DNA of 39,344 nt. Source: Caldifarciminota bacterium. Lineage in GTDB: Bacteria; Hydrothermota; Tepidihabitantia; SM23-42. Position 1 is the stretch's first letter; every line of letters begins with the position of its first letter. The notes beneath the pieces were generated by a model, which was given only the letters and a program-made list of their open reading frames with translations, searched no databases and was not told the DNA's origin. The DNA lies in contig CP070834.1 in assembly GCA_020341755.1 (NCBI GenBank), positions 2,271,431 to 2,310,774 on the forward strand, given 5' to 3'. The translations under genes and the position numbers were made by a program. Shown one piece after another: positions 6,188 through 22,321 of this stretch.

Positions 6188-7384
6188 CTAAACCTTTTCT
6201 ACCTTGGCGTGGTATTCTCTTACCGTACTCCGACCCGCACCTTTTGCTTCGTAGAGAGCCTGATCGGCAAGTTTGATCAACTCCGATTCGCTGGTCGCGT
6301 CATCAGGGTACGCCGATACGCCAGCCGAGAATGCGACCTTTACTTTTTTGCCGCTTCTGGCGAAATCATAGGTCTCCAGGTTCTGCAGCAACTCTGCCAT
6401 GATCTTCCCTGCATCGCTTTTCTTCGTTTCTGGACACATTACTATGAATTCGTCACCCCCGTAGCGCGCCAGTATGTCTGTTTCATCGAAGTATTTCGAA
6501 AAAATGCGTGACAGTTGTACGAGCAGGTGATCACCGGCCTGATGACCGTAGGTATCATTGTATGCCTTAAAATTATCCAGATCGATGATCGATACCGACA
6601 GGTTATGCTGGAACCGTTTGGCACGATTCAATTCCTCGCGGAGTCGATCCTTAAAATAGCCGATATTGTAAAGCTTGGTCAAAGGATCGGTATGCGCGGT
6701 GAATTGTATATCGGCAAAACTCTGAGTGTTGTTGAAGGCAATCCCGGCAATACCGGCAACAACACCGAGCAGATCCATCTCGCGCATCGTAAGATTCTCG
6801 GTGCGCGTGATCGCAACCACACCGAATTTCTTCTCCTGGAAAAAGATCGGAAAGCAGATATCAGGGTCGAATATCGAATACGGCTCCCTGATATCAAGCA
6901 CAGAGAACTCCCTCTGACTGATACGGTGTTTTTTCTCGAAACAGGCACCCGCTTTTCCCTTTTTCTCGGGATCTTCGATTTCATAGATCAGTTTCGGCAG
7001 CCAGTTATCATTAAGACCGAAATGCGCGACCACGTTCAGCCGTTGGCCCCGCGGATCGGCAAGAAAAACAGCGACCTGGTCAGCATTCAGACAATTTACC
7101 ATCACCTCCTTGACCTCGTGGGCAATATCCTGGGGTTTCAGGCGGGAGGTGAGATTGATTATCGATGAGAAAAAGAGATTATCCAATGAATGAAGCTTTT
7201 TTAACTCTTCCTGCAGTCTGAGATTCTCTTTTTTCTGCCGATCGAGCTCATCGGTGATAATATCGATCCTTTTTATGACCCTGGTCTTTTTGCGTGAACC
7301 CGAGAATAGTGCAATAATGAAGATAATCGAGATGATAAAGACAGCCGCGATGATGATCGTTATGAAATTCCCGGTCGTTGGCAT
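6188..7384 (-). CDS. Diguanylate cyclase with membrane anchor and GAF domain
   Basis: 398 residues: one N-terminal membrane helix (about 9-28), a short coiled coil (about 35-65), a GAF-like sensor region (about 70-220) and a C-terminal GGDEF domain (about 230-395) with an intact ARYGGDEF active-site motif. It should make cyclic di-GMP from two GTP at the inner membrane. The allosteric inhibitory site (RxxD five residues before GGDEF) reads DETD, so product inhibition through that site is unlikely. The start codon lies five bases after a -10 box, so the mRNA is predicted to be leaderless. It is the first gene of a unit with hypD and the PflX-type enzyme, and ends with TAG. Confidence 0.9.
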   Translation of the reverse strand: MPTTGNFITIIIAAVFIISIIFIIALFSGSRKKTRVIKRIDIITDELDRQKKENLRLQEELKKLHSLDNLFFSSIINLTSRLKPQDIAHEVKEVMVNCLNADQVAVFLADPRGQRLNVVAHFGLNDNWLPKLIYEIEDPEKKGKAGACFEKKHRISQREFSVLDIREPYSIFDPDICFPIFFQEKKFGVVAITRTENLTMREMDLLGVVAGIAGIAFNNTQSFADIQFTAHTDPLTKLYNIGYFKDRLREELNRAKRFQHNLSVSIIDLDNFKAYNDTYGHQAGDHLLVQLSRIFSKYFDETDILARYGGDEFIVMCPETKKSDAGKIMAELLQNLETYDFARSGKKVKVAFSAGVSAYPDDATSESELIKLADQALYEAKGAGRSTVREYHAKVEKV

Positions 7385-7389
7385 ACCCC

Positions 7390-7418
7390 ATTTTATATAT
7401 ATTTTCTCTTCCTGTCAA
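7390..7418 (-). promoter_or_regulatory. Leaderless promoter of the GAF-GGDEF gene
   Basis: On the - strand: TTGACA (complement of 7413-7418), 17-bp spacer, TAAAAT (complement of 7390-7395), then five bases to the ATG at 7384. Transcription is expected to begin at or within a base of the start codon. Confidence 0.6.
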
Positions 7419-7431
7419 CAACTTGTTGACA
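7413..7431. promoter_or_regulatory. Perfect palindrome holding both divergent -35 boxes
   Basis: TGTCAACAA (7413-7421), one central C, TTGTTGACA (7423-7431): a perfect 9-bp inverted repeat. The outer six bases on each side are the -35 hexamers of the two divergent promoters. A repressor or activator bound here would control both genes together. Confidence 0.65.
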
Positions 7432-7453
7432 TAAACATGACCCGTGCTATAAT
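7426..7453 (+). promoter_or_regulatory. Consensus leaderless promoter of the M55 peptidase gene
   Basis: TTGACA (7426-7431), 16-bp spacer, TATAAT (7448-7453), then exactly five bases to the ATG at 7459. No Shine-Dalgarno sequence is possible if transcription starts at the usual distance. Confidence 0.8.
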
Positions 7454-7458
7454 GCATC

Positions 7459-8301
7459 ATGGCGCAAACAGTCAAGGTTTTCATATCATTTGACCTGGAG
7501 GGAGTAACCATCGTATCGTCATGGCGTGAGATGAAAAAAGATGCTCCATCATTTGGCGATATAAGAAAGTGTGGAACCGAGGAAGTAAGCGCTGCCATAC
7601 GGGGTATTCACCACGCCTCGCGGGGAAGATGTGAAATCGTGGTATGCGATGCTCATGCCATGGGTGAAAATCTTATCATCGACGCGCTTCCTAAAGGCAT
7701 CCATACAGTTAGGGGATCGCCTCGTGAGTTTTATATGGTCGAAGGCATAGATGAATCGTTCGATCTTCTGTTCTGCATCGGGTATCACGCCATGGCAGGA
7801 ACCCTGCGCGCGGGAATGGACCATACGTATTCTTCGTCACTGTTGTACAGTGTTAAGATCAACGGGGTTTTTGTGGGCGAAACCGAGATCAATGCTGGGC
7901 TCGCCGGTCATTACGGCGTTCCGCTCGGCTTGGTAACAGGGGACGATCAACTCATCAAGGAGGTTCACAAATTCTTCGGCGATGACCTGGAAACGGTCAT
8001 CACCAAACATGGCATATCTCGATTTTCCATGATGTGCCGCCATCCGGCTGACGTACAGGCTGAAATCGAGAAGAAAGCCGCACGGGCGGTCGAGAATATC
8101 GACCGCTACAAACCGTTCACATTCAAAGAACCGATCCAGGCTGAATTCGAGGTCACCAGCTCCTTGATAGGAGACCTTGTCGCGCCGATACCCGGTATAA
8201 AACGCACATCGGCACGTACGTTATCAGTGACCACAAAAACAATACTGGATTTCTATCGCATGATGCGTCTTATGTGCAGTACTGGTTCAGGGCAGGCCTG
8301 A
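7459..8301 (+). CDS. M55 family peptidase (DppA-like D-aminopeptidase)
   Basis: 280 residues, cytoplasmic. M55 peptidases are zinc D-aminopeptidases known to release D-Ala residues from short peptides, often from cell-wall turnover. The family's metal and catalytic positions are visible: Asp12 and Glu14 in FDLEGVT, His66 in CDAHAMGENL, His110 in GYHAMAG, His122 in MDHTYSS and Glu141/Glu143 in GETEINAGLAGH. The start must be the ATG at 7459, because the first metal ligands lie 12 residues in; it lies five bases after a perfect -10 box, so translation is predicted to be leaderless. It stands alone on this strand, with no peptide transporter beside it. Confidence 0.92.
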   Translation: MAQTVKVFISFDLEGVTIVSSWREMKKDAPSFGDIRKCGTEEVSAAIRGIHHASRGRCEIVVCDAHAMGENLIIDALPKGIHTVRGSPREFYMVEGIDESFDLLFCIGYHAMAGTLRAGMDHTYSSSLLYSVKINGVFVGETEINAGLAGHYGVPLGLVTGDDQLIKEVHKFFGDDLETVITKHGISRFSMMCRHPADVQAEIEKKAARAVENIDRYKPFTFKEPIQAEFEVTSSLIGDLVAPIPGIKRTSARTLSVTTKTILDFYRMMRLMCSTGSGQA

Positions 8302-8325: not shown

Positions 8326-9624
8326 CTACTGGATCTCCATCAGTTCAAATTCGCACAGGGCAGTACGCTCGGTGCCACTCAGTAGATCGACGACCCGGAG
8401 AACCATGATGTAATATCCCGGACTCAGGTCCATAGGATGATATTCGGCTCCGAGATACGCAACATCACCTGCTTCCAGATGATCCTTGATCATAACGTCC
8501 ACTATTTCTCGACGCATTTTCTGCTTGTTGTATATTTCGTATGTCGTCTTCAATTGATGCATGCCATTTTTCGTTTCGAGATTATATACTTCAGCGAAAA
8601 AATAAAATGGACGGTGAACCGGAACAGCAGGGTTGGTGAGTGCGATCATACGACCGACCGGTTTATTGAATTTGCCATGAGTGAATCCCTCATCGATAAG
8701 AACGCACGGAATGAGATCACTGACCTCCTTTGCGTCATCCTGGTATTCGATGAGATCAACCAGCTTCGTCATGCTCGCTCCTCTTCTGTTTTTTATGTCA
8801 ACGAGCTCGACCTCCATTCGATATTCAGCTGGTTCGAGCCAGAGATTCACCTCGTCATAAAATACTCCAGCGGTGCGGTTTTGGGCCGAGAGAAGATCTT
8901 TCTTATGCTTGATAAGGCTGTCGTTTATGTCATATATGTCGATCGTTCTCTGGAGTATAATACCGGTCGTGTCCTCGAGCATAACGGTCATGTAGATCTC
9001 GAGTCGCGTTAAATTCAATTTCTGCCGGAACCGACCGATTGAAACGTCAAAATCCCACGGCTCATATGGTTCTGGAGAAGGCATGGTATCACCATCGAAC
9101 TCGCTGAGATAGGGTATTGTCACCCGGTCCCCGAACTCGGTTACCGCTAGCTGTTTGTATGCACGTGCGAATCTCACAAAGTCAAATACCAAACCTTCCC
9201 TCTTATACGTCCAGATCTCGGCGGGTTTCACCGCTTCATTTATCCTGATCGCGATCTTCTTCTGCGGTGTTATTTCCTCGCGTTTAGATGGTGGTCCGTA
9301 TTTGACGTAAACAGGAATACGATCGTCACTGAGCGGCGCGTGCTTTCCGAACTGATGGAAGGCGATTTCCTTGCGTTCTTCAAAGACAAGACGCTCCTCG
9401 TTTTTTCCTGCCCAGAAATCCTCGTAGTACCGGCCCCGTTCGGTCGGTGAATCAATATGCAGATACTCGACCGCAGCGGTCGAATCAATGCCTCGTAATC
9501 CCAGAAATATTTTGCGTTCATGCTCCAGAAGGCGATAATATCGAGCAGCAAAGACATTCGCTACGGCGCACGAGAGTATCACCAGGAAGCACATAACTAT
9601 AAGGACTTTTGCTGTTTTTTTCAT
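8326..9624 (-). CDS. GWxTD-domain envelope protein
   Basis: 432 residues from the ATG at 9624, which has GAGG five bases upstream; an ATG at 9645 would add seven residues. The N-terminus is a signal peptide (KKTAKVLIVMCFLVILSCAVA). The ILSC stretch could be a lipobox, so it may be a lipoprotein. The central part matches the GWxTD domain pattern: an RGRYYEDFW segment, then VKYGPPSKREE and EIWTYKREGLVFDF. The remainder is a beta-rich region. GWxTD proteins are common in the Bacteroidetes relatives and candidate phyla but have no proven function. It is the second GWxTD gene of a pair and is probably cotranscribed with the one upstream. Stop is TAG. Confidence 0.8.
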   Translation of the reverse strand: MKKTAKVLIVMCFLVILSCAVANVFAARYYRLLEHERKIFLGLRGIDSTAAVEYLHIDSPTERGRYYEDFWAGKNEERLVFEERKEIAFHQFGKHAPLSDDRIPVYVKYGPPSKREEITPQKKIAIRINEAVKPAEIWTYKREGLVFDFVRFARAYKQLAVTEFGDRVTIPYLSEFDGDTMPSPEPYEPWDFDVSIGRFRQKLNLTRLEIYMTVMLEDTTGIILQRTIDIYDINDSLIKHKKDLLSAQNRTAGVFYDEVNLWLEPAEYRMEVELVDIKNRRGASMTKLVDLIEYQDDAKEVSDLIPCVLIDEGFTHGKFNKPVGRMIALTNPAVPVHRPFYFFAEVYNLETKNGMHQLKTTYEIYNKQKMRREIVDVMIKDHLEAGDVAYLGAEYHPMDLSPGYYIMVLRVVDLLSGTERTALCEFELMEIQ

Positions 9625-9631
9625 CCTGACC

Positions 9632-9745
9632 TCACTTACTTCCATATCCCGGCACGGTTACGATTGCCGGCAGAAACTTCGATTTAATAAGCAACACCTC
9701 AACACTCCCCAGTACCTCATCCTCACCTGACCGCAGCGTGCGCAT
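9632..9745 (-). CDS. Possible 37-residue small protein between the two GWxTD genes
   Basis: An ATG one base after the upstream gene's TGA (TGA-C-ATG) opens 37 codons. They end seven bases before the ATG of the downstream GWxTD gene. The product (starts MRTLRSGEDEVLGS, ends VPGYGSK) has no membrane helix and no family that I recognise. The tight stop-start spacing favours translational coupling, but an ORF this short can arise by chance. It could also be the remnant of a longer gene. Confidence 0.35.
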   Translation of the reverse strand: MRTLRSGEDEVLGSVEVLLIKSKFLPAIVTVPGYGSK

Positions 9746-9746
9746 G

Positions 9747-10907
9747 TCACTGATCCTCGGCATCAATGAGATCCTCTTTGATATCCTCGGTCTTGTAGTC
9801 GCGCGTTAGCGGCATGATGAGTTCCAGCCAGGGCCATTTTATATACCAGTTCGGGTCCTGTGGACCGAATTCAAGGGCAGTCATCAATTCGCCGGGTCGA
9901 AGTTCGGTGATCAGACGGGGATTATCGTCACCTGCTATATCACTGAACAGCACATCGTTTCCCTCCCGGTAATAATGCCATACCTCAAGAATCAGCCCCG
10001 ATTCTGCCAACGCCAGTTTTTCTATTTCATCGGGTGGTCCGAATTCACTGTAGTATTGTCCCCTTTTTGTATCCCTTCCTCGCAGTGTCGATGTCGCGAA
10101 GAGATTATCGGCTTCGCGGTACCGCTGCTCCATGCTGATTTCAGCCGGTAATTTCGTCTCGGCAAGGTAAAAGTACTGCCGGCATGCAACTGTCGTGCCC
10201 GACGATGAATCTTCGATATGAACCGCAAGTTGATATTGACCGCTGGCAAAATCAGCGAGTACAATGGAATTCGTATCGATCTGAGTAAAATCGTGCTTCA
10301 ATCGCTTATGAACCTTCTCAAACCGCCGCGTCTCCGTACTGTCGATCACTGTGTACCGGATAGTATAAAAAAGACTGTCGGGAATCAATCCATATAGTTC
10401 CAGAAAGGAAAGTAGCGTATCGCGGCGTGAGAAGGAATGCTTGAGAATCGGATTGAGCGCATACCCGTGAAACACCATGTTACCCGATGTCTCCTTCCTG
10501 CCCAGGACAAGATCGCTGCATTTCAAGGTCGATGTATCAGGAAGAATATGGATATCGTTCCGAAAGACGAACACGCCGGTGCCGGAAGCAATATGGAGAT
10601 CATACCGGAATGTTCCCGGATAAAGATGCAGCGGAATGTAATCAATGAAATAATCATTCTGACACCCGGGTGAGATGGATGCTCCTTTTACCCCGCTAAT
10701 GGTCGCCGAATCGCTGTCAGCGATATGATGAACACCAAGACGATACGTGTATTGCAGGAACACGGTATCCTGCTGAGAATAATCGTTCTCAGACAACATC
10801 TGTGCCACCGGTATCTCGTACCACAATTCAGCGTAACCGTCATCAAAGCGGTAGACATCAACAGTAAGGGGAAATAGAGATATTAAATAGAGTAGTAAGA
10901 TTGCCAT
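9747..10907 (-). CDS. GWxTD-domain secreted protein
   Basis: 386 residues with an N-terminal signal peptide (MAILLLYLISLFPLTV). The N-terminal two thirds are beta-rich and unassigned. The GWxTD pattern lies at about residues 265-340: FATSTLRGRDTKRGQYYSEFGPPDEIE, then LEVWHYYREGNDVLFSD, where RDTKRG stands in for the G-W-x-T-D core. In the neighbouring paralogue the domain lies nearer the N-terminus. A fully consensus promoter lies upstream with a predicted leader of only about nine bases and no Shine-Dalgarno sequence. It heads the GWxTD transcription unit. Function unknown; probably periplasmic or surface-associated. Confidence 0.78.
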   Translation of the reverse strand: MAILLLYLISLFPLTVDVYRFDDGYAELWYEIPVAQMLSENDYSQQDTVFLQYTYRLGVHHIADSDSATISGVKGASISPGCQNDYFIDYIPLHLYPGTFRYDLHIASGTGVFVFRNDIHILPDTSTLKCSDLVLGRKETSGNMVFHGYALNPILKHSFSRRDTLLSFLELYGLIPDSLFYTIRYTVIDSTETRRFEKVHKRLKHDFTQIDTNSIVLADFASGQYQLAVHIEDSSSGTTVACRQYFYLAETKLPAEISMEQRYREADNLFATSTLRGRDTKRGQYYSEFGPPDEIEKLALAESGLILEVWHYYREGNDVLFSDIAGDDNPRLITELRPGELMTALEFGPQDPNWYIKWPWLELIMPLTRDYKTEDIKEDLIDAEDQ

Positions 10908-10922
10908 AACATTGTTATGATG

Positions 10923-10950
10923 ATTATAGGGTTTATGTCCTGACTGTCAA
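10923..10950 (-). promoter_or_regulatory. Consensus promoter of the GWxTD unit
   Basis: On the - strand: TTGACA (complement of 10945-10950), 16-bp spacer, TATAAT (complement of 10923-10928), both perfect. The start codon is 15 bases after the -10 box. A 6-bp inverted repeat CATAAC-ATT-GTTATG (10905-10919) overlaps the start codon. Confidence 0.85.
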
Positions 10951-10993
10951 GTATCTGGCTCAAGACCCGCGGGGACCTGCATATATACCATCG

Positions 10994-11021
10994 TTGACCT
11001 GATGTTCTTTTTCGGTACAAT
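10994..11021 (+). promoter_or_regulatory. Leaderless promoter of the GH57 gene
   Basis: TTGACC (10994-10999), 16-bp spacer, TACAAT (11016-11021), then five bases to the GTG start at 11027, the same geometry as at the M55 peptidase gene. Confidence 0.75.
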
Positions 11022-11026
11022 AGAAT

Positions 11027-12721
11027 GTGCCGAAAGCATACCTCTCAATCGTATTGCATTCACATCTGCCCTGGGTTCTCGGTCATGGTCGATGGCCTCA
11101 CGGTACTGACTGGCTGAACGAAGCCGCTGCAGAATGCTACATACCATTACTCAACGAACTCACTGGTCTTATCGAGAAAGGTCATCGTCCCCATATCAAT
11201 ATCGGCATTACCCCGATACTGCAGGAACAGCTGACCGCAGCCCCGTTTGTTGTTGAATTCAAGAATTATCTACAGCAGAAGATTACGGCAGCAGAGGAAG
11301 ATATACAGGAATTTACTAGAAAGAATGATCGTGAATTTCTCGCTGTCGCGCACATGTGGCATGACTACTACCAACACATTGAAAATGACTTCAAAAACGT
11401 GTACAAAGAGAATCTCGTTGCGGCATTCGGTCGACTGCAGGATGAGGGACTGCTGGAGATAATAACATCGGGGGCCACGCATGGGTATCTCCCTCTGTTA
11501 AAACATGACCGATCGGTGGCGGCACAGGTACGGCTCGGCGTTGAGGTTTACAAAAAGCATTTCCGACGCCAGCCCCACGGCATATGGCTACCGGAGTGTG
11601 CCTACCGGCCGGCCTACGCATGGACCCCGCCGACCAATCCTGAAGCTGCTCCGTATATGAGGAAGGGGGTGGATGAATTCCTGAGTACGCACAGTATCCG
11701 TTTTTTTATCACGGATGCACATCTCCTGAAAGGCGGTCGGGCAATTGGCGTGTATCTTTCCCGATTCAGAGCGCTGAAAAATCTTTGGCGCCATTTTGAG
11801 AAGGAATTCGTTCCGGTAAAAGAAGATTTTCCCAAGAGTCAATACGATGTATATCTTGTATCTTCGAATCCTAAGGTGACTCCGGTCGCGGTCTTCACCC
11901 GTGATCCTGTGACTGCATCACAGGTCTGGAGTGGGGATCTTGGTTATCCCGGCGAAGCGGCATATCTTGATTTTCACAAGAAGAGGTTTCCGGGCGGGCT
12001 TCGATACTGGAGGGTCACCGGACCAAAGATAGATCTCGCCGAAAAGGTTGCCTATGACCCGGGCAGCATCGATAGCATGCTGCGCGAGCATGCCAGACAT
12101 TTTGTATCGCTCATCAAAGATATCGCCGGAAAGTTCTATACTGAAGCCGGACGGCCCGCGTTCATCTGCATACCATTCGATACCGAATTGTTCGGGCACT
12201 GGTGGTTTGAAGGACCCCGGTGGCTTTCCAAAATCTTGAGCCTGATCGACGATGACGATGATCTGTCTCTGGCAACGGGTTCGACGATACTCGATACGCT
12301 TGAACCGCATAAGGTCATTTCCTTATCCGAAGGCTCGTGGGGCGAAGGCGGTTTTCATTACATATGGCTCAACAAATGGACAGAGTGGACATGGAGGCGA
12401 ATCTATGAAGCGGAAGACGAATTCTACGCACTTTATGATGAATTCACGCGCGGCAACGTACCAAGAAAAGATCTCCTCATGAAACAACTGGCACGAGAAC
12501 TGCTCCTCCTTCAGTCATCCGATTGGCAATTCCTCATCTCTACATGGAGTGCCCGCGATTATGCAGAACTAAGATTCACCCGCCACTATGAGAACTTCAG
12601 ACGAATTGCCGAGATCATGCGTAAACCCGCATTTTCGGATAGTGACCGTATCTTCCTGAAAGATCTGGAAGAACAGGATAGCTGTTTCAAGGATCTCGAT
12701 CTCTCCATTTTTTCCGAGTAA
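11027..12721 (+). CDS. GH57 family glycoside hydrolase, probable 1,4-alpha-glucan branching enzyme
   Basis: 564 residues, cytoplasmic. The N-terminus YLSIVLHSHLPWVLGHGRW is the family's first conserved region, which fixes the GTG start at 11027. The catalytic nucleophile is Glu190 in GIWLPECAYRP and the acid/base is Asp385 in PFDTELFGHWW. A helical DUF1957-like C-terminal region follows (about 420-560). GH57 branching enzymes transfer alpha-1,4-glucan chains to alpha-1,6 positions in glycogen synthesis; alpha-amylase activity is the alternative in this family. No other glycogen gene is in the window. It is followed closely by pcm, which has its own promoter. Confidence 0.9.
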   Translation: MPKAYLSIVLHSHLPWVLGHGRWPHGTDWLNEAAAECYIPLLNELTGLIEKGHRPHINIGITPILQEQLTAAPFVVEFKNYLQQKITAAEEDIQEFTRKNDREFLAVAHMWHDYYQHIENDFKNVYKENLVAAFGRLQDEGLLEIITSGATHGYLPLLKHDRSVAAQVRLGVEVYKKHFRRQPHGIWLPECAYRPAYAWTPPTNPEAAPYMRKGVDEFLSTHSIRFFITDAHLLKGGRAIGVYLSRFRALKNLWRHFEKEFVPVKEDFPKSQYDVYLVSSNPKVTPVAVFTRDPVTASQVWSGDLGYPGEAAYLDFHKKRFPGGLRYWRVTGPKIDLAEKVAYDPGSIDSMLREHARHFVSLIKDIAGKFYTEAGRPAFICIPFDTELFGHWWFEGPRWLSKILSLIDDDDDLSLATGSTILDTLEPHKVISLSEGSWGEGGFHYIWLNKWTEWTWRRIYEAEDEFYALYDEFTRGNVPRKDLLMKQLARELLLLQSSDWQFLISTWSARDYAELRFTRHYENFRRIAEIMRKPAFSDSDRIFLKDLEEQDSCFKDLDLSIFSE

Positions 12722-14700: not shown

Positions 14701-16260
14701 TTAACGTCCGGATATTTTTTTCATCCGCAGCAGCCGTTTATCTACCTCATGAAAAATATCACTTTCATCGATATCAATGGTCGTTCTGTATTCAAGTACA
14801 CCAAAAGATACCGATGCACTCTTTTTCTTGTATTCGGCAGTAAAAACCTCACGGGCAAACTTATCCTGTATCTTCCTGCCAAAGATTTCCGCATCCTGCT
14901 CGGTTGCATCAGGCAGGACCGCGACAAATTCATCACCTCCCCATCGTGCAATGGTATCGCTTTTCCGTGAATAGGACCGTAAGATGTTCGCAAAACGCAT
15001 TAAAACATCATCGCCGCACTTGTGCCCGAGTTCATCATTGATATCCTTTAAGCGGTCGATATCGAACATAACAACGGCAATAACACCCTTATGTACTTTT
15101 ACGGTCTGAATCCCCTCGACCAGTTTCTGCTCAAAGAATCTCCTCGTGTATACACCGGTCAACGAATCCTCGATCGATATCTTGTAGAGAACGGCATTCG
15201 CCAGTCGCAGCGATACGGTCTTAACCAGATTTTTCAAAAGTATAATAGTTTCCTTGGATAATTTCTCCGGTGTCCGCACGGTTATCGAACCGATAACACG
15301 CTCGCGGGTGGACAGCGGCAGTTCAACGATCTGGTCTGTACTATCGAACGTGCTAAGAGGATGGTCCCGGATCACCCGACCGTCATATGTCTTTGTCTTG
15401 TATATGCCGACATCAGGATAATCCAGCGAGAGTGTAACCTCGCGAGCCTGCAGGAAAACCTGGACTTTTTTTAGAATCGTTCTGATCAACTCTTCAACGC
15501 TAATAATGCTTTCGAGTATCCTGGTTATCTCGTTTATTTCTTCTTCTTTATTAATGCGGGTCTTCACCTCTGACTGGTATCGGGACATCTCGTAACCAAT
15601 ATAGGAAAAAAGAAGTATCCCCATGATGAACGGAATGGTTGCGCCGAATCCACGATCAGCGTACAGCATCGCCATCGAGATACCGAACGGATAAATGAAG
15701 ATTTCCAACATGTCGGTAACAAATGCTTCTTCCTTGAAATAGGTCCATATGTTCTCATTCCTGATCACCATCCGCACCGTGAAGAAAATTTCGTTGAGCA
15801 GTATGATAACGGCGATTCCGATGATCGGTCCGACAGCCGGCGAGAAATATCTCATAACAGCACCAGCCATCGTATAGATGATCGCGTATACACCCCCATT
15901 ATACAAACCGATCTGCATGGTACCCCGGAACTGACGCCAGCTGCTGAGACAGGCGCGGCAATTCTTCACGAACCACATCAGGGTGACACCCACCAGCGCA
16001 ACCGTAGCGGCAACCGCACTGCCGAAGGTGAGCAACAGGAAGAAATAGATGATGATGTCAAAGGAAACGATCGTGTCACGTATCTTTATATAGTAGTATG
16101 AGGATATCATGACTGCCAGGTAAAAGGCAATGGCTGCTGGGAAGGATGGGAACTGCGGCCTGGTGGCAATAACACTCCAGACAACGACCGCAACCCCGGC
16201 GATGATCATGAATATATCATATATAGATTTAAGTCTCTCCCGCACTACATAATTATACAT
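14701..16260 (-). CDS. Multi-helix membrane diguanylate cyclase
   Basis: 519 residues from the ATG at 16260; a GTG at 16338 in the same frame would give 545 residues, and neither has a good ribosome site. Seven or eight membrane helices fill residues ~15-225, a MASE-like sensor. A linker/GAF-like region (~235-355) follows, then a GGDEF domain (~360-515) with intact ARWGGDEF. The inhibitory site is present (RKSD, five residues before GGDEF), so product feedback is expected, unlike the other cyclase in the window. It should make cyclic di-GMP at the inner membrane. The sensed signal is unknown. The gene stands alone between converging apt and the envelope operon. Confidence 0.88.
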   Translation of the reverse strand: MYNYVVRERLKSIYDIFMIIAGVAVVVWSVIATRPQFPSFPAAIAFYLAVMISSYYYIKIRDTIVSFDIIIYFFLLLTFGSAVAATVALVGVTLMWFVKNCRACLSSWRQFRGTMQIGLYNGGVYAIIYTMAGAVMRYFSPAVGPIIGIAVIILLNEIFFTVRMVIRNENIWTYFKEEAFVTDMLEIFIYPFGISMAMLYADRGFGATIPFIMGILLFSYIGYEMSRYQSEVKTRINKEEEINEITRILESIISVEELIRTILKKVQVFLQAREVTLSLDYPDVGIYKTKTYDGRVIRDHPLSTFDSTDQIVELPLSTRERVIGSITVRTPEKLSKETIILLKNLVKTVSLRLANAVLYKISIEDSLTGVYTRRFFEQKLVEGIQTVKVHKGVIAVVMFDIDRLKDINDELGHKCGDDVLMRFANILRSYSRKSDTIARWGGDEFVAVLPDATEQDAEIFGRKIQDKFAREVFTAEYKKKSASVSFGVLEYRTTIDIDESDIFHEVDKRLLRMKKISGR

Positions 16261-16410
16261 GAAATGAGCATTTTTGTAAAGGAGTAAATAACAACGAGTC
16301 ACACAGACCGCCTGAAAATGCTGAAAAAAAATGAACACTCTGTAGATCTGTAAATTTTTGTACCTGGTTTATTTATTTTGTATATTTGGTCTCTTTTGTC
16401 GATTAACCTT

Positions 16411-16446
16411 ACCCATCAACGAAATGGGTCTCGTTGCCCAACAACG
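16411..16446. repeat. Two adjacent small hairpins
   Basis: ACCCAT (16411-16416) pairs with ATGGGT (16424-16429), and CGTTG (16432-16436) pairs with CAACG (16442-16446). They lie in the intergenic region between the membrane cyclase and the OmpA-like gene. No role can be assigned. Confidence 0.4.
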
Positions 16447-16471
16447 TATAACGATATGTTTTTTCTTCCTG

Positions 16472-16541
16472 GTTCTTAGTTTTTAGTTCCTACATTCTAT
16501 CCGTGGGCTTTCTACTGCGTGCTGTCTACTACTTACTCTAT
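16472..16541. repeat. Degenerate 7-bp tandem repeat array after the envelope operon
   Basis: Ten 7-base steps beginning GTTCTTA, GTTTTTA, GTTCCTA, CATTCTA and continuing through ACTGCGT, GCTGTCT, ACTACTT. The array touches the stop codon of the last envelope gene. The period matches the array at 13514-13548, but the unit sequence differs. Confidence 0.6.
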
Positions 16542-17395
16542 CTAATAACTATTTCTATCTTGGAGAATTTCGGCTGTAAGCCGATGGTGAAGCGCGGTGC
16601 GGTCTTGATACCTTCTGCCGGCAGGACGGTACGTTTTACGATCTCGTCCATAACTGCCTGACCATGCGCCTTGGCACGTGATTCGGATTCGGAATACGAA
16701 TACACAATGACCTCTTCCTGGAAATTGTCCTTTATCACATTTGCTACTTCATCATAATAATACCCAGCATATTCGGTCGACATCTGCGTGTTATCTCTGA
16801 AGAGTTCGTTCGACGCTATAGCGATGATTGTATTATCGTGCTCTTCATACACGATGCCGGTGAACCGGTAAGAACGACCACCTATTCTCGTCGGGTTTCC
16901 GACCGCATCGAATGCGGTAAAAACATAGTTGTACACTTCCCCCATATTGCACATAGTACCGTTATTCTTCCTGCCGTCCCAGGACAGCGATGCCGGCGGT
17001 AGACCCCGCTCAGCGATCCTCCGTACGATCTCACCATTACTATCCGTGATGATGAGTTCCCAGGATGAAACGGTTTTCTCAAAACGAGGGATGAACAACG
17101 CAATTTCCCCATAGACAAGCCTGCTCAACAGTGGTATGCGCAGATACTCGCTGTGCAGGTAGAGTATCGGCGTGTTCAGGGAATCGATCGTCGCATACAA
17201 TTTATCATCGAAAATGTACCGTTCCTGGGATATGATACTATCGAGCGGCGCGAACGGTTTCAATTCGGGTGCCAGTACGATTTTCCTATCCGTGATCTTA
17301 AATTCTGCTTCTCCGGTGATGACCTCTTCACCGATATCGTGTTCGGTCGGCTCTGCAGCTTGACCAATAAGCAATACTATCAGCAAAAGATTCAT
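16538..17395 (-). CDS. Envelope protein with FlgD-like Ig and degenerate OmpA-like C-terminal region
   Basis: 285 residues with a short signal peptide (MNLLLIVLLIGQAA). A FlgD-like Ig segment spans about residues 105-170 (WELIITDSNGEIVRRI, LPPASLSWDGRKNNG). The last ~95 residues resemble an OmpA-family peptidoglycan-binding domain in shape (helix around DEVANVIKDNF, then SESESRAKAHGQAV), but the usual Asp/Arg ligands are not clear. The start has GAGAGG seven bases upstream. It is the last gene of the envelope operon, 26 bases behind tonB. A role anchoring the Exb/Ton motor to the cell wall, like Pal or OmpA proteins, would fit but is inferred. Stop is TAG. Confidence 0.7.
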   Translation of the reverse strand: MNLLLIVLLIGQAAEPTEHDIGEEVITGEAEFKITDRKIVLAPELKPFAPLDSIISQERYIFDDKLYATIDSLNTPILYLHSEYLRIPLLSRLVYGEIALFIPRFEKTVSSWELIITDSNGEIVRRIAERGLPPASLSWDGRKNNGTMCNMGEVYNYVFTAFDAVGNPTRIGGRSYRFTGIVYEEHDNTIIAIASNELFRDNTQMSTEYAGYYYDEVANVIKDNFQEEVIVYSYSESESRAKAHGQAVMDEIVKRTVLPAEGIKTAPRFTIGLQPKFSKIEIVIR

Positions 17396-17421
17396 TGATT
17401 ACCTCTCACTATACAGCACAG

Positions 17422-18324
17422 TTAGCCGCATACAAACTTGAACGTGATAATACCCCATTGTGTTTCCTGAACCACTCCCGCGGGTAACGGCGCAAATTTC
17501 CATGACCGAACGGCATTGATGACCGCCTGATCGAGGTCGGGATATCCGGAAGATATCTCGACCAGTGATCCCTCTCTTACCCGGCCATTCGGTTCGACCC
17601 AGACTCTGATCTTTACCACACCGGAAAGCCTCTGCCGCAAACACCATGCCGGGTATTTCGGCAGTATCTTGGTCAAGATAGTGCGACCGGCGATCGGCCC
17701 GGCGAGCGAGATCTGCGTACCGGCCTGCTGGACTTTCAACTGGGTCTCGACATTTTTTTCGACGCTCTTCGTGATGTGCGTCGTTTTCGGAGGCGGTGGT
17801 TGTTTATCGATCTTGATAGTAGGTGCGGGTGCCTTTTTCCCGATCTTACCCGAGCTTCCGATCCCGACATCGCCTTCTGTACCAGCACCTCTCGGCAGAT
17901 TTTTTGCCAGCGAGATGGGTTTTTCAGCAAGGATCTCATCCGTGCTCTTCATCGAACCGTTCTTCGAACTGCCGATCTTGACCACATCGCCGATAGAACC
18001 GGCATCCATGTAGCGATCGAGGTCTATCGTCGCCTGGCTGCGGTCGAGTTTCGCATCGAGGTCGATAGCAGGTGTCACAATATCGCTGCCAGACCCGGAC
18101 GGCTCTGCTTCCGACTAGGTTTCCTGAACACCCGACCACACCGACCCCTTTGAGATGACCTTGGCGACTTCGGGTCGGTAGGATTGATCGATCAGGGTCA
18201 CTTCCTGGATATCTTCATAGTTTATCTGTGATGATCTGCTCGACCCCGACAGGAGTATAAAGAGAAGGACATGTATGATGATCGATACGATGATGCCGAG
18301 GTCTAACCGTTTGTCCTTTAGCAT
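17422..18324 (-). pseudogene. tonB: TonB-like energy transducer interrupted by an in-frame TAG at codon 70
   Basis: The N-terminal part (codons 1-69) has the membrane anchor LGIIVSIIIHVLLFILLSG. A TAG stop (complement of 18115-18117) follows Q-E-T. The same frame then stays open for 230 codons with a linker and a C-terminal TonB domain (RTILTKILPKYPAWC, VWVEPNGRVREGSL, DLDQAVINAVRSWKFAPLP). No frameshift is present; one base change would restore a 300-codon gene. The ATG directly follows the exbD stop (TAA-ATG). TonB couples the ExbB/ExbD proton motor to outer-membrane partners. Options are recent inactivation, a base-calling error, amber readthrough, or two separate peptides; the second lacks its own anchor and ribosome site. 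Confidence 0.8.
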
Positions 18325-18714
18325 TTATTCCCTTGGTTTCTTCGTGGCACACGCAATGCGCTTTGCGCCGGTCTTTTTCACCTGGGCGAGAATCTCCAGC
18401 ACATCGCTGTGATACACTTCTTTATCCGCCCGGACAATGACCAACTGGAATGGGTCTTTATCGAGTTCTGCGGCAATGACATCCGGTAACTGTTCGGGCA
18501 GAATCTCAACATCGTTCACGAGCAATCTGTTATCGATCGTGAACGTAACCGTCAAATTCTCTTCGGTCTTGGTCTCCGCGGTGTGTGCCATAGGCACATC
18601 GACGCTCGTCTGAGTATGAGTCATGACGAGCGGAGCGATCATCATCATCACCAGCACCAGGATCAAACCAACGCACGCCATTGGCAGTATATCAATATTT
18701 CCCATCTGTTTCAT
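18325..18714 (-). CDS. exbD: ExbD/TolR-like protein lacking the membrane aspartate
   Basis: 129 residues: one membrane helix (about 10-31) and a periplasmic domain of ExbD type (VTFTIDNRLLVNDVEILPEQLP, VIVRADKEVYHSDVLEILAQVK). In ExbD/TolR the helix begins P-x-x-D, and this Asp carries protons. Here the same position reads P-M-A-C (Cys14), and the only nearby acid, Asp8, lies before the helix. The protein may serve as a structural or non-proton-carrying partner of the neighbouring ExbD. It overlaps that gene by four bases (ATGA) and abuts tonB, so translation is coupled. Confidence 0.88.
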   Translation of the reverse strand: MKQMGNIDILPMACVGLILVLVMMMIAPLVMTHTQTSVDVPMAHTAETKTEENLTVTFTIDNRLLVNDVEILPEQLPDVIAAELDKDPFQLVIVRADKEVYHSDVLEILAQVKKTGAKRIACATKKPRE

Positions 18715-19124
18715 CTTCGGCTCCTGAGCAGGGCGAGCTCACCGGCTCCCTTTTGTTTTGCCAGATCGAGTATCTGAACGACACGTTCGTACTTCACGTT
18801 CTGCTCGGTCGAGACGATGACTTTTCGTGCCACGCTCCTGGCGAGGAGTTCGGGCAGCAATTCCTCCAGCCGCTCGTAGCTCACGGTCTCCTCGTTGAGC
18901 ATGATCGAACCGTCGTCGAGCAGGTGAATATTAACCTTGATATCGCTGACATCCCCGGCGCTCGCTTTGGCGACACCGGGAGTATTAACGAAAATCCCCG
19001 ATTCGAAGAACAGCGGAATTGTCACGATGAAACCGATTACGAGCGAGAGCGCGATATCGACCAGTGAATTCAATATCAGCCCCTCGGGTTTCTTCTCAAA
19101 CTTCAACCGTCTTCGTTTGCCCAT
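18711..19124 (-). CDS. exbD: ExbD/TolR-like protein with intact membrane aspartate
   Basis: 137 residues from the ATG at 19124, one base after the exbB stop; an in-frame start at 19145 would overlap exbB by 20 bases. A basic N-terminus (MGKRRRLKFEKKP) precedes one membrane helix (about 15-38) that carries Asp23 in NSLVDIALSLVIG, the position essential for proton flow in the family. The periplasmic domain (DIKVNIHLLDDGSIMLNEETV, IVSTEQNVKYERVVQILDLAKQKG) is of ExbD type. With ExbB it forms the inner-membrane proton channel that drives TonB. Confidence 0.9.
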   Translation of the reverse strand: MGKRRRLKFEKKPEGLILNSLVDIALSLVIGFIVTIPLFFESGIFVNTPGVAKASAGDVSDIKVNIHLLDDGSIMLNEETVSYERLEELLPELLARSVARKVIVSTEQNVKYERVVQILDLAKQKGAGELALLRSRR

Positions 19125-19125
19125 G

Positions 19126-19833
19126 TCAGAAGTTCCAGCCCTCATCGGCCGGCGGTGCAGGAGGCGGGGTCGGCTTTGTCGGACCTGTCTTGCCAGCCTG
19201 CCCGGCGGCTTTCTTCTTCATATTACTGAACAGGACCACGACACGGTCGCTGACGCCGTCGAGTTCCAATGCCAGCTCACTGCTTTTTTTAGTAAAATAG
19301 TTGTAGAAGAAGAGCGTAGGAATGCCTATGAACAGACCGAAGGCCGTGGTCAGAAGCGCTTCTGCAATACCGCTCGATATGACCGCCGGTCCGCCCGAAC
19401 CGGTAATAGCGATGTTGTGGAATGATTTGATCAATCCCATAACTGTACCGAGCAATCCCAGGAGGGTAGCGGCGTTTGCCAGCGTTCCCATACCGCCGAG
19501 ATACCGATCGAACTTCACTTTTTCTTCAATAATGAAGCTCGAGAGAAGGTCGAGGAGATTATCTGAATCGAGCTGACGGTTGTTGAGTGCAACACTGAAG
19601 AGCCCGTTGAGCGTATTCTTCTTTTGGTTGACATAATTGAAAGCGGCATTGACCCCCTGATTTCTAACCAGCTGGCTGAATTGTATAAAACCCTTTCGTG
19701 GATCAAAACGGTTCCGAGAGAAGTAGATGAAGCGTTCGATTATGAGTGCCAGAGCAACGATGGAACAGAACAGTAAAATTATCATGACCAGACTTCCTTT
19801 AAAAATGTCAATGACTGGCTGCCCTAAAATCAT
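19126..19833 (-). CDS. exbB: ExbB/TolQ/MotA-type proton channel protein
   Basis: 235 residues with three membrane helices (about 15-38, 115-140, 155-185). The family's pore motifs are clear: LLGLLGTVMGLIKSF and GIAEALLTTAFGLFIGIPTLFFYNYF, with the conserved Glu and Thr residues. The C-terminus is an unusual Pro-rich tail (TGPTKPTPPPAPPADE). A strong AAAGGAGG lies five bases before the ATG. It lies between the TPR protein gene and two exbD genes and forms the stator of the motor. Confidence 0.94.
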   Translation of the reverse strand: MILGQPVIDIFKGSLVMIILLFCSIVALALIIERFIYFSRNRFDPRKGFIQFSQLVRNQGVNAAFNYVNQKKNTLNGLFSVALNNRQLDSDNLLDLLSSFIIEEKVKFDRYLGGMGTLANAATLLGLLGTVMGLIKSFHNIAITGSGGPAVISSGIAEALLTTAFGLFIGIPTLFFYNYFTKKSSELALELDGVSDRVVVLFSNMKKKAAGQAGKTGPTKPTPPPAPPADEGWNF

Positions 19834-19852
19834 TCATCCTCCTTTATTGTCA

Positions 19853-22321
19853 TCATTCATTTCCTCCTTCTGGTTCTTCCGGAGTAATCTCTTCGGACGG
19901 TGGCGCGGTTCTCATCCCCTGTTCTCCAAGCAACTGCTCGCAAATCCCAACGTTATGCTGGGCATTTGCCAGGTAGGCTGAATTAGGATATGACTGGACC
20001 ACTGTCTTGAAATTTGTCAATGCTTTTCCATATTCTTGCATATTATAATAGGCTGTTCCGAGATTGAAATATACTACATCCAGCTGTTCGGCGGATGGGA
20101 AATACTGAAGAAATCGTTCATATAATTCTGCAGCCCGTGCCCATTTCTCAAGTTCATTCGCAGATTCAGCTGCCAGGAGCAGGGCATCCGGTGCCTGTGA
20201 CGAATTCGGAAAATTGACAACTACCTTGAGAAACTCATCAATAGCGCGTTCATAATTTCCTTCGTCGAAATGATCGCGGGCGATCCGGTATTGTCCGTCA
20301 GCCGCAAGTTCGCTTTCCGGAAATTTGCTTACGAAGAGGACCATCTCGTCCATCGAATCGAATCCTTTCCGGTAATAACACATTTCCATGCTCTTACGAG
20401 CACCCGCGGCTTCGTCTGATGTCGGAAATAGATCGAGGAATTTCTGAAACTCCCTGATCGCATCATCAAAACTCTGTTCATTATAATAACTCTGTCCGAT
20501 CGCCAGCTGGGCAGAGCGGGCATAGTCATTCTGGGGATGATTTTCCACTGCCCAGCGGAACAGGGCGCGTGCCTTATCGTACTCCAGTGCCTTGAAGTAC
20601 GTATCGCCCGCCCGAAAACCGGCTTCTGCCGCCTTGTAGGAAAAAGGGTAGGTCCCGATAAGTTCTTCCCAGGCCTCGATCGCCTGACCGTAATACTGGA
20701 GATTGAAATAGCACATCCCCGCATAGAACAATGCCGGGACCGCACACCGCTCATCCTTCGGATAGGTATGGTACACGGCTTCGAACGTATCGAGCGCGGC
20801 CAGGTGATTGTTAAGATTGTATTGTGTATAACCGATACCGAGATAGGTTGCGATCACCAGGGATGAATCATGGAACGGTGTCTGGCTCATGGCGGTCAAT
20901 ATCTGATGTGCCTCTTTTGAACGGTCCTGATTGTAGATGGCGTAGGCAAGACCGATCTTCGCATAGGGAGTGACCTCGACGCCGAAAAACTCCTGGGTCA
21001 CACGGAGATACTGCTTTTCCGCTTCTGGAAAATTATCCTTGTAATAGTATGCCTCACCAAGGAAGAAATGTGTTCTTCCTCGCCATGGGTTGGTTTCGGC
21101 AGGGAAATCCCGGAGGTATCGGCTGCCAAAGGTGACTGCGTGATCGTACTGTTTCAACCTGTTCAGCGAAGACAGGAGCATTGCCGCACTCGGCTCACGG
21201 AGCATGGAATTCGGGTAATACTGCAGCAGTTGCTCGAAGTACACTGATGCGTGATAATAATCTTTGTTCTGGAAATATATCATACCCGTAAGATACTCAC
21301 CGATACTCGACAGTTCGCCTGTAGCGAACATGGTCGCTAATTGCGAGGCAGAAGCGAGTGCTCGCAGTGTATCACCGGATGCCATCAGGGCATGCGTCAG
21401 CTGGAGGTTGGCATAGGTCGCTATCTGGGTATTCGGGTAATTCGCACGCACCCACTGGAACGCACTGACCGAGCCAGAGCCATCACCGAGATGCATCCTG
21501 CTGATACCGAGAAAGTAACTGCTGTGCGCGGCAAGTAAATTATCGGAGTGGCGGGTCAAGGGTAGAAGATGTTCTGAAGCAGCCGCATATTCACCCGCGT
21601 GAACCATGGCTGCGGCAAGGAAAAAATGTGCATAATCGTTCAATGAGCTCAGTGGATAGTTGACGATGAAGTCCCAGAATTTAATCCGTGCACCATCGAA
21701 ATCCCGGTTGAAGAATAGCGCTTCGGCTCTCGAGAACTCGGCGAGGACCGCAATGGGCGTGTTGGGTGCTACATCGAGGATTTCCTTGAAAACTCCGATC
21801 GCTTCCAGCGGCTTGCCGAGCCGGGAAAGTGCCTTGCCGTAATAAAATTTTGCCTCGAGTAATTCATTACCGGCAAGTTTATCCCGCGCTTCCTCAAAAC
21901 TTCCCCGGAAATAGTGTAGTACGCCAAGCGCAAAGTTCGCCCGCTCTTCCTGCTGATACGCAGCATGCTTGAGCAGTCTCTGCAGGATATCTTCGGCTTC
22001 CCGAAAATTTCCCTGCAGTATATCGATGAGGCCTATTGCATATAAACATTCCGGAGCAAGATAGGTTGCGCGTTTTTCTTTGAGGACCTGTTCGAAACGT
22101 TTCTTGGCATTCTCATACTCGCCCAGGTTGAAATAACATTCGGCAAGGCGGAATTCCACCTCATCACCAAAATCACTGCCTCCATACCGACCCAGCATCG
22201 TTCGGAAATAATCTACGGCACTGCGGTAATCTTCCTGGAGGAATAACTGATGGCCGATCTCATAGTCTGTGACCAGCTGGTCATAATCAATAGCCAGGAG
22301 GAATAGCACTATAGGTATCAT
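19853..22321 (-). CDS. Large periplasmic TPR-repeat protein
   Basis: 822 residues with a short signal peptide (MIPIVLFLLAIDY), then TPR/BamD-like repeats of about 34-38 residues over almost its whole length (for example FRLAECYFNLGEYENAKKRFEQVL and YFNLGTAYYNMQEYGKALTNFKTVVQSYPNS). No enzyme domain is visible. The short acidic tail is EEITPEEPEGGNE. Such proteins are assembly scaffolds; YbgF/CpoB, linked to the Tol system, is a much smaller relative in architecture. The gene lies 19 bases before exbB and 56 bases after the PorV-like gene, so it probably links the motor and an outer-membrane partner (inference). AAAGGA precedes the ATG. Confidence 0.85.
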   Translation of the reverse strand: MIPIVLFLLAIDYDQLVTDYEIGHQLFLQEDYRSAVDYFRTMLGRYGGSDFGDEVEFRLAECYFNLGEYENAKKRFEQVLKEKRATYLAPECLYAIGLIDILQGNFREAEDILQRLLKHAAYQQEERANFALGVLHYFRGSFEEARDKLAGNELLEAKFYYGKALSRLGKPLEAIGVFKEILDVAPNTPIAVLAEFSRAEALFFNRDFDGARIKFWDFIVNYPLSSLNDYAHFFLAAAMVHAGEYAAASEHLLPLTRHSDNLLAAHSSYFLGISRMHLGDGSGSVSAFQWVRANYPNTQIATYANLQLTHALMASGDTLRALASASQLATMFATGELSSIGEYLTGMIYFQNKDYYHASVYFEQLLQYYPNSMLREPSAAMLLSSLNRLKQYDHAVTFGSRYLRDFPAETNPWRGRTHFFLGEAYYYKDNFPEAEKQYLRVTQEFFGVEVTPYAKIGLAYAIYNQDRSKEAHQILTAMSQTPFHDSSLVIATYLGIGYTQYNLNNHLAALDTFEAVYHTYPKDERCAVPALFYAGMCYFNLQYYGQAIEAWEELIGTYPFSYKAAEAGFRAGDTYFKALEYDKARALFRWAVENHPQNDYARSAQLAIGQSYYNEQSFDDAIREFQKFLDLFPTSDEAAGARKSMEMCYYRKGFDSMDEMVLFVSKFPESELAADGQYRIARDHFDEGNYERAIDEFLKVVVNFPNSSQAPDALLLAAESANELEKWARAAELYERFLQYFPSAEQLDVVYFNLGTAYYNMQEYGKALTNFKTVVQSYPNSAYLANAQHNVGICEQLLGEQGMRTAPPSEEITPEEPEGGNE

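Follow-up and report, generated by a model that had tools for sequence, protein, structure and literature searches.

A palindrome between divergent GGDEF and M55 genes

The locus described here raises the question of whether a perfect palindrome lying between two divergent genes is the binding site of a regulator that controls both of them, or whether it follows from the way in which their promoters are placed. In the window (the whole stretch of 39,344 nt that was analysed), genes for a GGDEF diguanylate cyclase and an M55 D-aminopeptidase diverge from an intergenic gap of 74 bp, which holds the palindrome TGTCAACAA-C-TTGTTGACA (Table 1). The initial annotation had described this element as a perfect 9+1+9 palindrome with TTGACA facing both ways and had placed the -10 boxes five bases before the start codons; both descriptions were confirmed, the distance being exactly 5 nt at ATG 7384 and at ATG 7459. 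The reading that we favor, with a probability of about 0.83, is that two ordinary leaderless promoters stand back to back and that the palindrome is a by-product of their outward-facing -35 boxes, with symmetric inner bases between them.

The GGDEF protein carries its GGDEF domain at residues 230-386 with the GGDEF motif intact, a weak GAF match at residues 84-216 (Pfam GAF_3, 1.5e-5, below its cut-off) and, as judged by eye, a hydrophobic N-terminal stretch; its relatives are 52-64% identical. The M55 gene is single-copy in the genome. Elsewhere in the window, on the minus strand, a second GGDEF protein has a TonB/ExbD/ExbD/ExbB set and a TPR protein of 822 aa nearby (14701-22321), and two proteins without a Pfam match (8326-9645 and 9747-10907) resemble the GWxTD type by eye.

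Table 1. Features of the divergent GGDEF/M55 locus (window coordinates; a dot marks features without strand).
Feature	Position	Strand	Remark
GGDEF diguanylate cyclase gene, 398 aa	6188..7384	-	Pfam GGDEF 1.1e-44
-10 box TAAAAT, GGDEF promoter	7390..7395	-	5 nt before ATG 7384
-35 box TTGACA, GGDEF promoter	7413..7418	-	left outer end of palindrome
19-bp palindrome TGTCAACAACTTGTTGACA	7413..7431	.	two outward-facing -35 boxes and 7 inner bases
Inner spacer CAACTTG between -35 boxes	7419..7425	.	symmetric here; relatives have 4-5 nt, mostly without symmetry
-35 box TTGACA, M55 promoter	7426..7431	+	right outer end of palindrome
Extended -10 box TGcTATAAT, M55 promoter	7445..7453	+	5 nt before ATG 7459
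M55 D-aminopeptidase gene, 280 aa	7459..8301	+	Pfam Peptidase_M55 3.7e-86

Both start codons directly follow near-consensus promoters

The gap contains two complete promoters that face outward, each with a -35 and a -10 box of its own. The M55 promoter has a spacer of 16 nt between TTGACA and TATAAT (7448-7453), is extended by TG and matches the consensus hexamers at 12 of 12 positions, while the GGDEF promoter has a spacer of 17 nt and matches at 11 of 12. The presence of two near-consensus promoters, each ending 5 nt before its start codon, far exceeds what chance would give. The closest in-frame stop upstream of the M55 ATG is the TAA within the M55 -10 box, and that upstream of the GGDEF ATG is the TGA within the GGDEF -35 box; since these stops lie inside the promoter boxes and no start codon intervenes before either annotated ATG, an earlier start is excluded for both proteins. 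As judged by eye, a Shine-Dalgarno (SD) sequence at the proper distance is lacking at both starts, and the GGGG ahead of the GGDEF ATG stops one base short of the codon.

We searched the genome for TTGACW-N15-18-TATAAT-N4-8-ATG, using the reversed sequence as a control, and found 111 sites compared to 1 in the control; the N14-18 variant of this strict pattern has 42 sites, compared to the 111 at N4-8. In a sample of 439 kb from twenty 20-kb stretches, in which open reading frames (ORFs) were called mechanically (n = 360), -10-like boxes peak at 5, 6 and 7 nt before starts (22, 17 and 19 ORFs, with about 8 at other distances), and SD pentamers lie 3-11 nt from the start in 126 ORFs, so that two modes of initiation coexist. 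When a -35 box is also required, 19, 16 and 10 ORFs remain at 5, 6 and 7 nt, compared to a mean of 3.8; their spacer is mostly 16 nt long, a length that ties in the scoring favor. A comparison of 61 genomes showed more N4-8 than N14-18 sites in the family, the order and several class-level families, by about 2-3 fold in the family and by more in some class-level families; family f6 has few promoters of this type and no clear N4-8 excess.

Back-to-back TTGACW pairs number 38 in the genome and 8 in the reversed control, and 7 of 15 inspected pairs have -10-like boxes matching at least 5 of 6 positions on both sides. A second divergent pair lies in the window at 10908-11027, where the plus-strand promoter, TTGACC-N16-TACAAT-N5-GTG, belongs to a GH57 branching enzyme and the minus-strand promoter, TTGACA-N16-TATAAT, lies 15 nt before ATG 10907. 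Two further back-to-back sites in the genome, AGTCAAGAAAAAGATATTGACT and AGTCAAGGAAAAGATATTGACT (L091, G000:C1:460275-460296, and G000:C1:955903-955924), are near-identical, which suggests a repeated element.

Each promoter is conserved separately, that of M55 across the order

To the extent that hexamers, spacer and start distance were compared, the M55 promoter is the same throughout the order: the upstream region reads TTGACW-N16-TATAAT in all 20 readable genomes, seven of them with the divergent pair (including this genome) and 13 with M55 elsewhere. The -35 box is TTGACA, with TTGACT in two genomes, and the start codon (ATG or GTG) lies 5 nt past TATAAT, with the single exception of 6 nt in G002. 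The promoter is missing from four more distant genomes. Its near-fixation letter by letter across genera, at 55-62% protein identity, is unusually strict (window 7426-7461 and loci L004-L022). As judged by eye, the GGDEF -10 box is likewise 5 nt before the start in the genomes with the pair, apart from 7 nt in G003, and also in G009, G010 and G014; the GGDEF start codon in G002 is GTG. At the M55 genes located elsewhere (13 genomes), the promoter is retained and the palindrome is absent. Thus, the two promoters are conserved separately from each other, and the palindrome is seen only where they stand back to back.

That the genes are leaderless, as the initial annotation had also claimed, is well supported by the 5-nt distance kept across this order-level group, and the genome-wide peak of -10 boxes 5-7 nt before starts points the same way; transcription of each gene probably starts at its first codon. 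One could suppose instead that the transcripts begin farther upstream and that the boxes beside the start codons are incidental, given that SD-led genes are common in this genome. Neither of these two starts has an SD sequence, however, the complete M55 promoter, 5-nt distance included, is fixed throughout the order, and any other promoter would need to sit inside the opposite gene or its promoter, all of which make this account very improbable.

The palindrome is probably a by-product of its -35 boxes

Twelve of the 18 paired bases of the palindrome belong to the -35 boxes, at whose outer edges it stops exactly. This leaves three inner pairs to explain, for which the chance is about 1 in 64. 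At uniform composition, a sequence as long as the window should contain about one palindrome with 9-bp arms and a 0-6 loop by chance, and the window contains several longer ones, so the palindrome alone is not remarkable. The exact motif is rarer, at 0.01 occurrences within 3 mismatches per shuffled window, largely because two consensus -35 boxes lie in it.

The initial annotation had suggested looking for the palindrome upstream of other genes. This search yielded no further site: within 2 mismatches the 19-mer is unique in the genome, and within 3 mismatches there is one weak site, at control level. The palindrome was accordingly rejected as a regulon motif. Pairing of the inner letters at the 38 back-to-back TTGACW pairs of this genome (26/111) equals the random rate, as it does at 75 back-to-back pairs among the relatives' matches listed (44/184), and a general selection for inner symmetry at back-to-back -35 sites was likewise rejected.

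The same divergent pair is present in six further genomes of the family (G002, G003, G006, G011, G015 and G017), all of which keep both -35 hexamers (one as TTGACT). Because no same-genus genome was found among 100 relatives, loss of the palindrome could be followed at family distance only. At that distance the hexamers stay, while the inner letters and the spacer length change, and conservation of the palindrome does not extend beyond the hexamers: the bases between the -35 boxes are TATTA in the three genus g2 genomes, GAACA in G006, TACC in G003 and CATTC in G002, the last three being asymmetric. The genus g2 genomes, together with a promoter remnant in G001, have a perfect 17-bp palindrome at the same place. 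In all seven genomes with the pair, the -35 boxes lie 4-7 bp apart (spacers of 4, 5 or 7).

These results bear directly on the proposal that the palindrome is the operator of a dimeric regulator controlling the GGDEF and M55 genes together. Its perfection, its position centred between the promoters and the 17-bp palindromes of genus g2 and the G001 remnant are what such an operator would lead one to expect, and an operator with a single target would show no recurrence in the genome and would thus escape the search for it at other regulon genes, where none was found. Against this, inner letters and spacer length vary among the family relatives, by which the palindrome was rejected as a conserved operator, M55 genes located elsewhere do without it, and none of the 30 window proteins scanned matches a helix-turn-helix regulator family in Pfam. 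Taken together, the varying spacers, the chance-level inner pairing and the lack of a second copy leave the operator reading unsupported, and we consider it highly unlikely. What is conserved is the promoter and its distance to the start, rather than the inner palindrome.

The two genes are often apart

On the GGDEF tree, adjacency of the GGDEF and M55 genes is seen in one part only, the label needing three changes, and is absent in G009 and G010, inside the adjacency-bearing part. In most relatives the genes are apart: in G010 they share a contig at a distance of about 9 kb, and in the single-contig genome G005 they are hundreds of kilobases from one another. In G001 (96% complete), M55 was not found and the GGDEF gene is kept. 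Upstream of the latter (L036, G001:C114) lie a decayed M55 promoter, with a spacer lengthened to 19 nt in place of 16, and a few bases from the start of the M55 gene, adjoining the end of a gene that resembles window 8326-9645; M55 appears to have been lost, with its promoter left behind.

A functional coupling of the two genes was rejected on the grounds that adjacency holds in part of the family and that M55 was not found in G001. The idea that a palindrome-bound protein switches c-di-GMP synthesis and D-peptide turnover together therefore did not hold up, being countered by this separation and occasional absence of M55 as well as by the single copy, the chance-level inner symmetry and the unconserved inner letters and spacing, and a dedicated c-di-GMP/D-peptide switch is not indicated.

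A model with RNA polymerase alone

Under the preferred reading of two ordinary leaderless promoters, RNA polymerase is the only protein that the sequence requires. Polymerase with the housekeeping sigma factor would bind either promoter and start transcription at, or within 1-2 bases of, the initiator codon, and ribosomes would then initiate on the leaderless end of the mRNA. RNA polymerase usually has a footprint of roughly -55 to +20. Since the predicted start sites are separated by about 75 bp and the -35 boxes by 7 bp, two polymerases would overlap and may partly hinder each other sterically, so that occupancy may alternate. A weaker form of the suggestion that the locus chooses between the two genes, namely steric competition between two polymerases, is thus possible on geometry. 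Near-consensus boxes could raise occupancy above the usual. According to Warman et al., separate divergent promoters escape such direct clashes and basal activity does not usually suffice for competition (PMC12825309); we found no literature directly on steric exclusion at separate divergent promoters. We therefore hold the architecture with high confidence and polymerase competition with low-to-moderate confidence.

A stronger version would make the locus a regulator-free toggle, at which one polymerase fits at a time, so that strong use of either promoter would repress the other, which would be the reason for its retention. The -35 boxes are indeed 4-7 bp apart wherever the pair occurs, and tighter bidirectional promoters compete once one direction is strongly activated (PMC12825309). 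Gap compaction accounts equally well for the closeness, however, and the patchy arrangement, missing in G009 and G010, together with the missing M55 of G001, indicates that it is not strongly maintained. We regard the toggle as a doubtful alternative, albeit one with some chance of being right.

More speculatively, the WOR-3/Stahlbacteria-like order may use leaderless mRNAs, transcribed from near-consensus promoters of the form TTGACW-N16-TATAAT-N5/6-ATG, for a sizeable fraction of its genes, often with two such promoters back to back, so that polymerase alone would set the balance between divergent genes; as a whole, we think this rather unlikely. A limited literature search found no papers on leaderless genes in WOR-3.

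Comparison with known systems

The striking palindrome at this locus is mainly a by-product of promoter geometry and, as such, illustrates a trap for motif hunting between divergent genes. The analysis also uncovered a strong, order-wide signature of leaderless promoters in a little-studied bacterial group, which can help in annotating start codons and in deciding which organisms to use for work on leaderless translation.

A -10 box a few nucleotides before the start is likewise found in the leaderless (TA-led) genes known from Deinococcus-Thermus and Actinobacteria, which lack an SD sequence and occur alongside SD-led genes in the same genome; the -10 motif of D. radiodurans lies about 6-7 bp upstream of the ORF (PMC3160421, PMC12340547, PMC3898074). 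Both genes at this locus share the marks of TA-led genes, a -10-like box about 5-7 nt before the start and the absence of an SD sequence and of an earlier in-frame start. They differ in that a full TTGACW -35 box at 16 nt is usual here and the distance is mostly 5-6 nt, in a different phylum and as known from sequence.

Back-to-back divergent promoters are a classical gene organisation, with which the locus shares separate promoters, adjacent -35 boxes and divergent genes. It departs from this organisation in having hexamers and a spacer that together happen to make up a perfect palindrome, and in its two predicted leaderless transcripts. Bidirectional promoters, in turn, have divergent start sites 7-25 bp apart and reciprocally overlapping -10 and start positions (PMC10268837). 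Those described by Warman, Grainger and colleagues resemble this locus in their symmetric elements and in the possible exclusion of one polymerase by another (PMC12825309, PMC10268837). Theirs, however, share a -10 element, whereas here the predicted starts are about 75 bp apart, the -10 boxes are separate and only the centre of the palindrome is shared.
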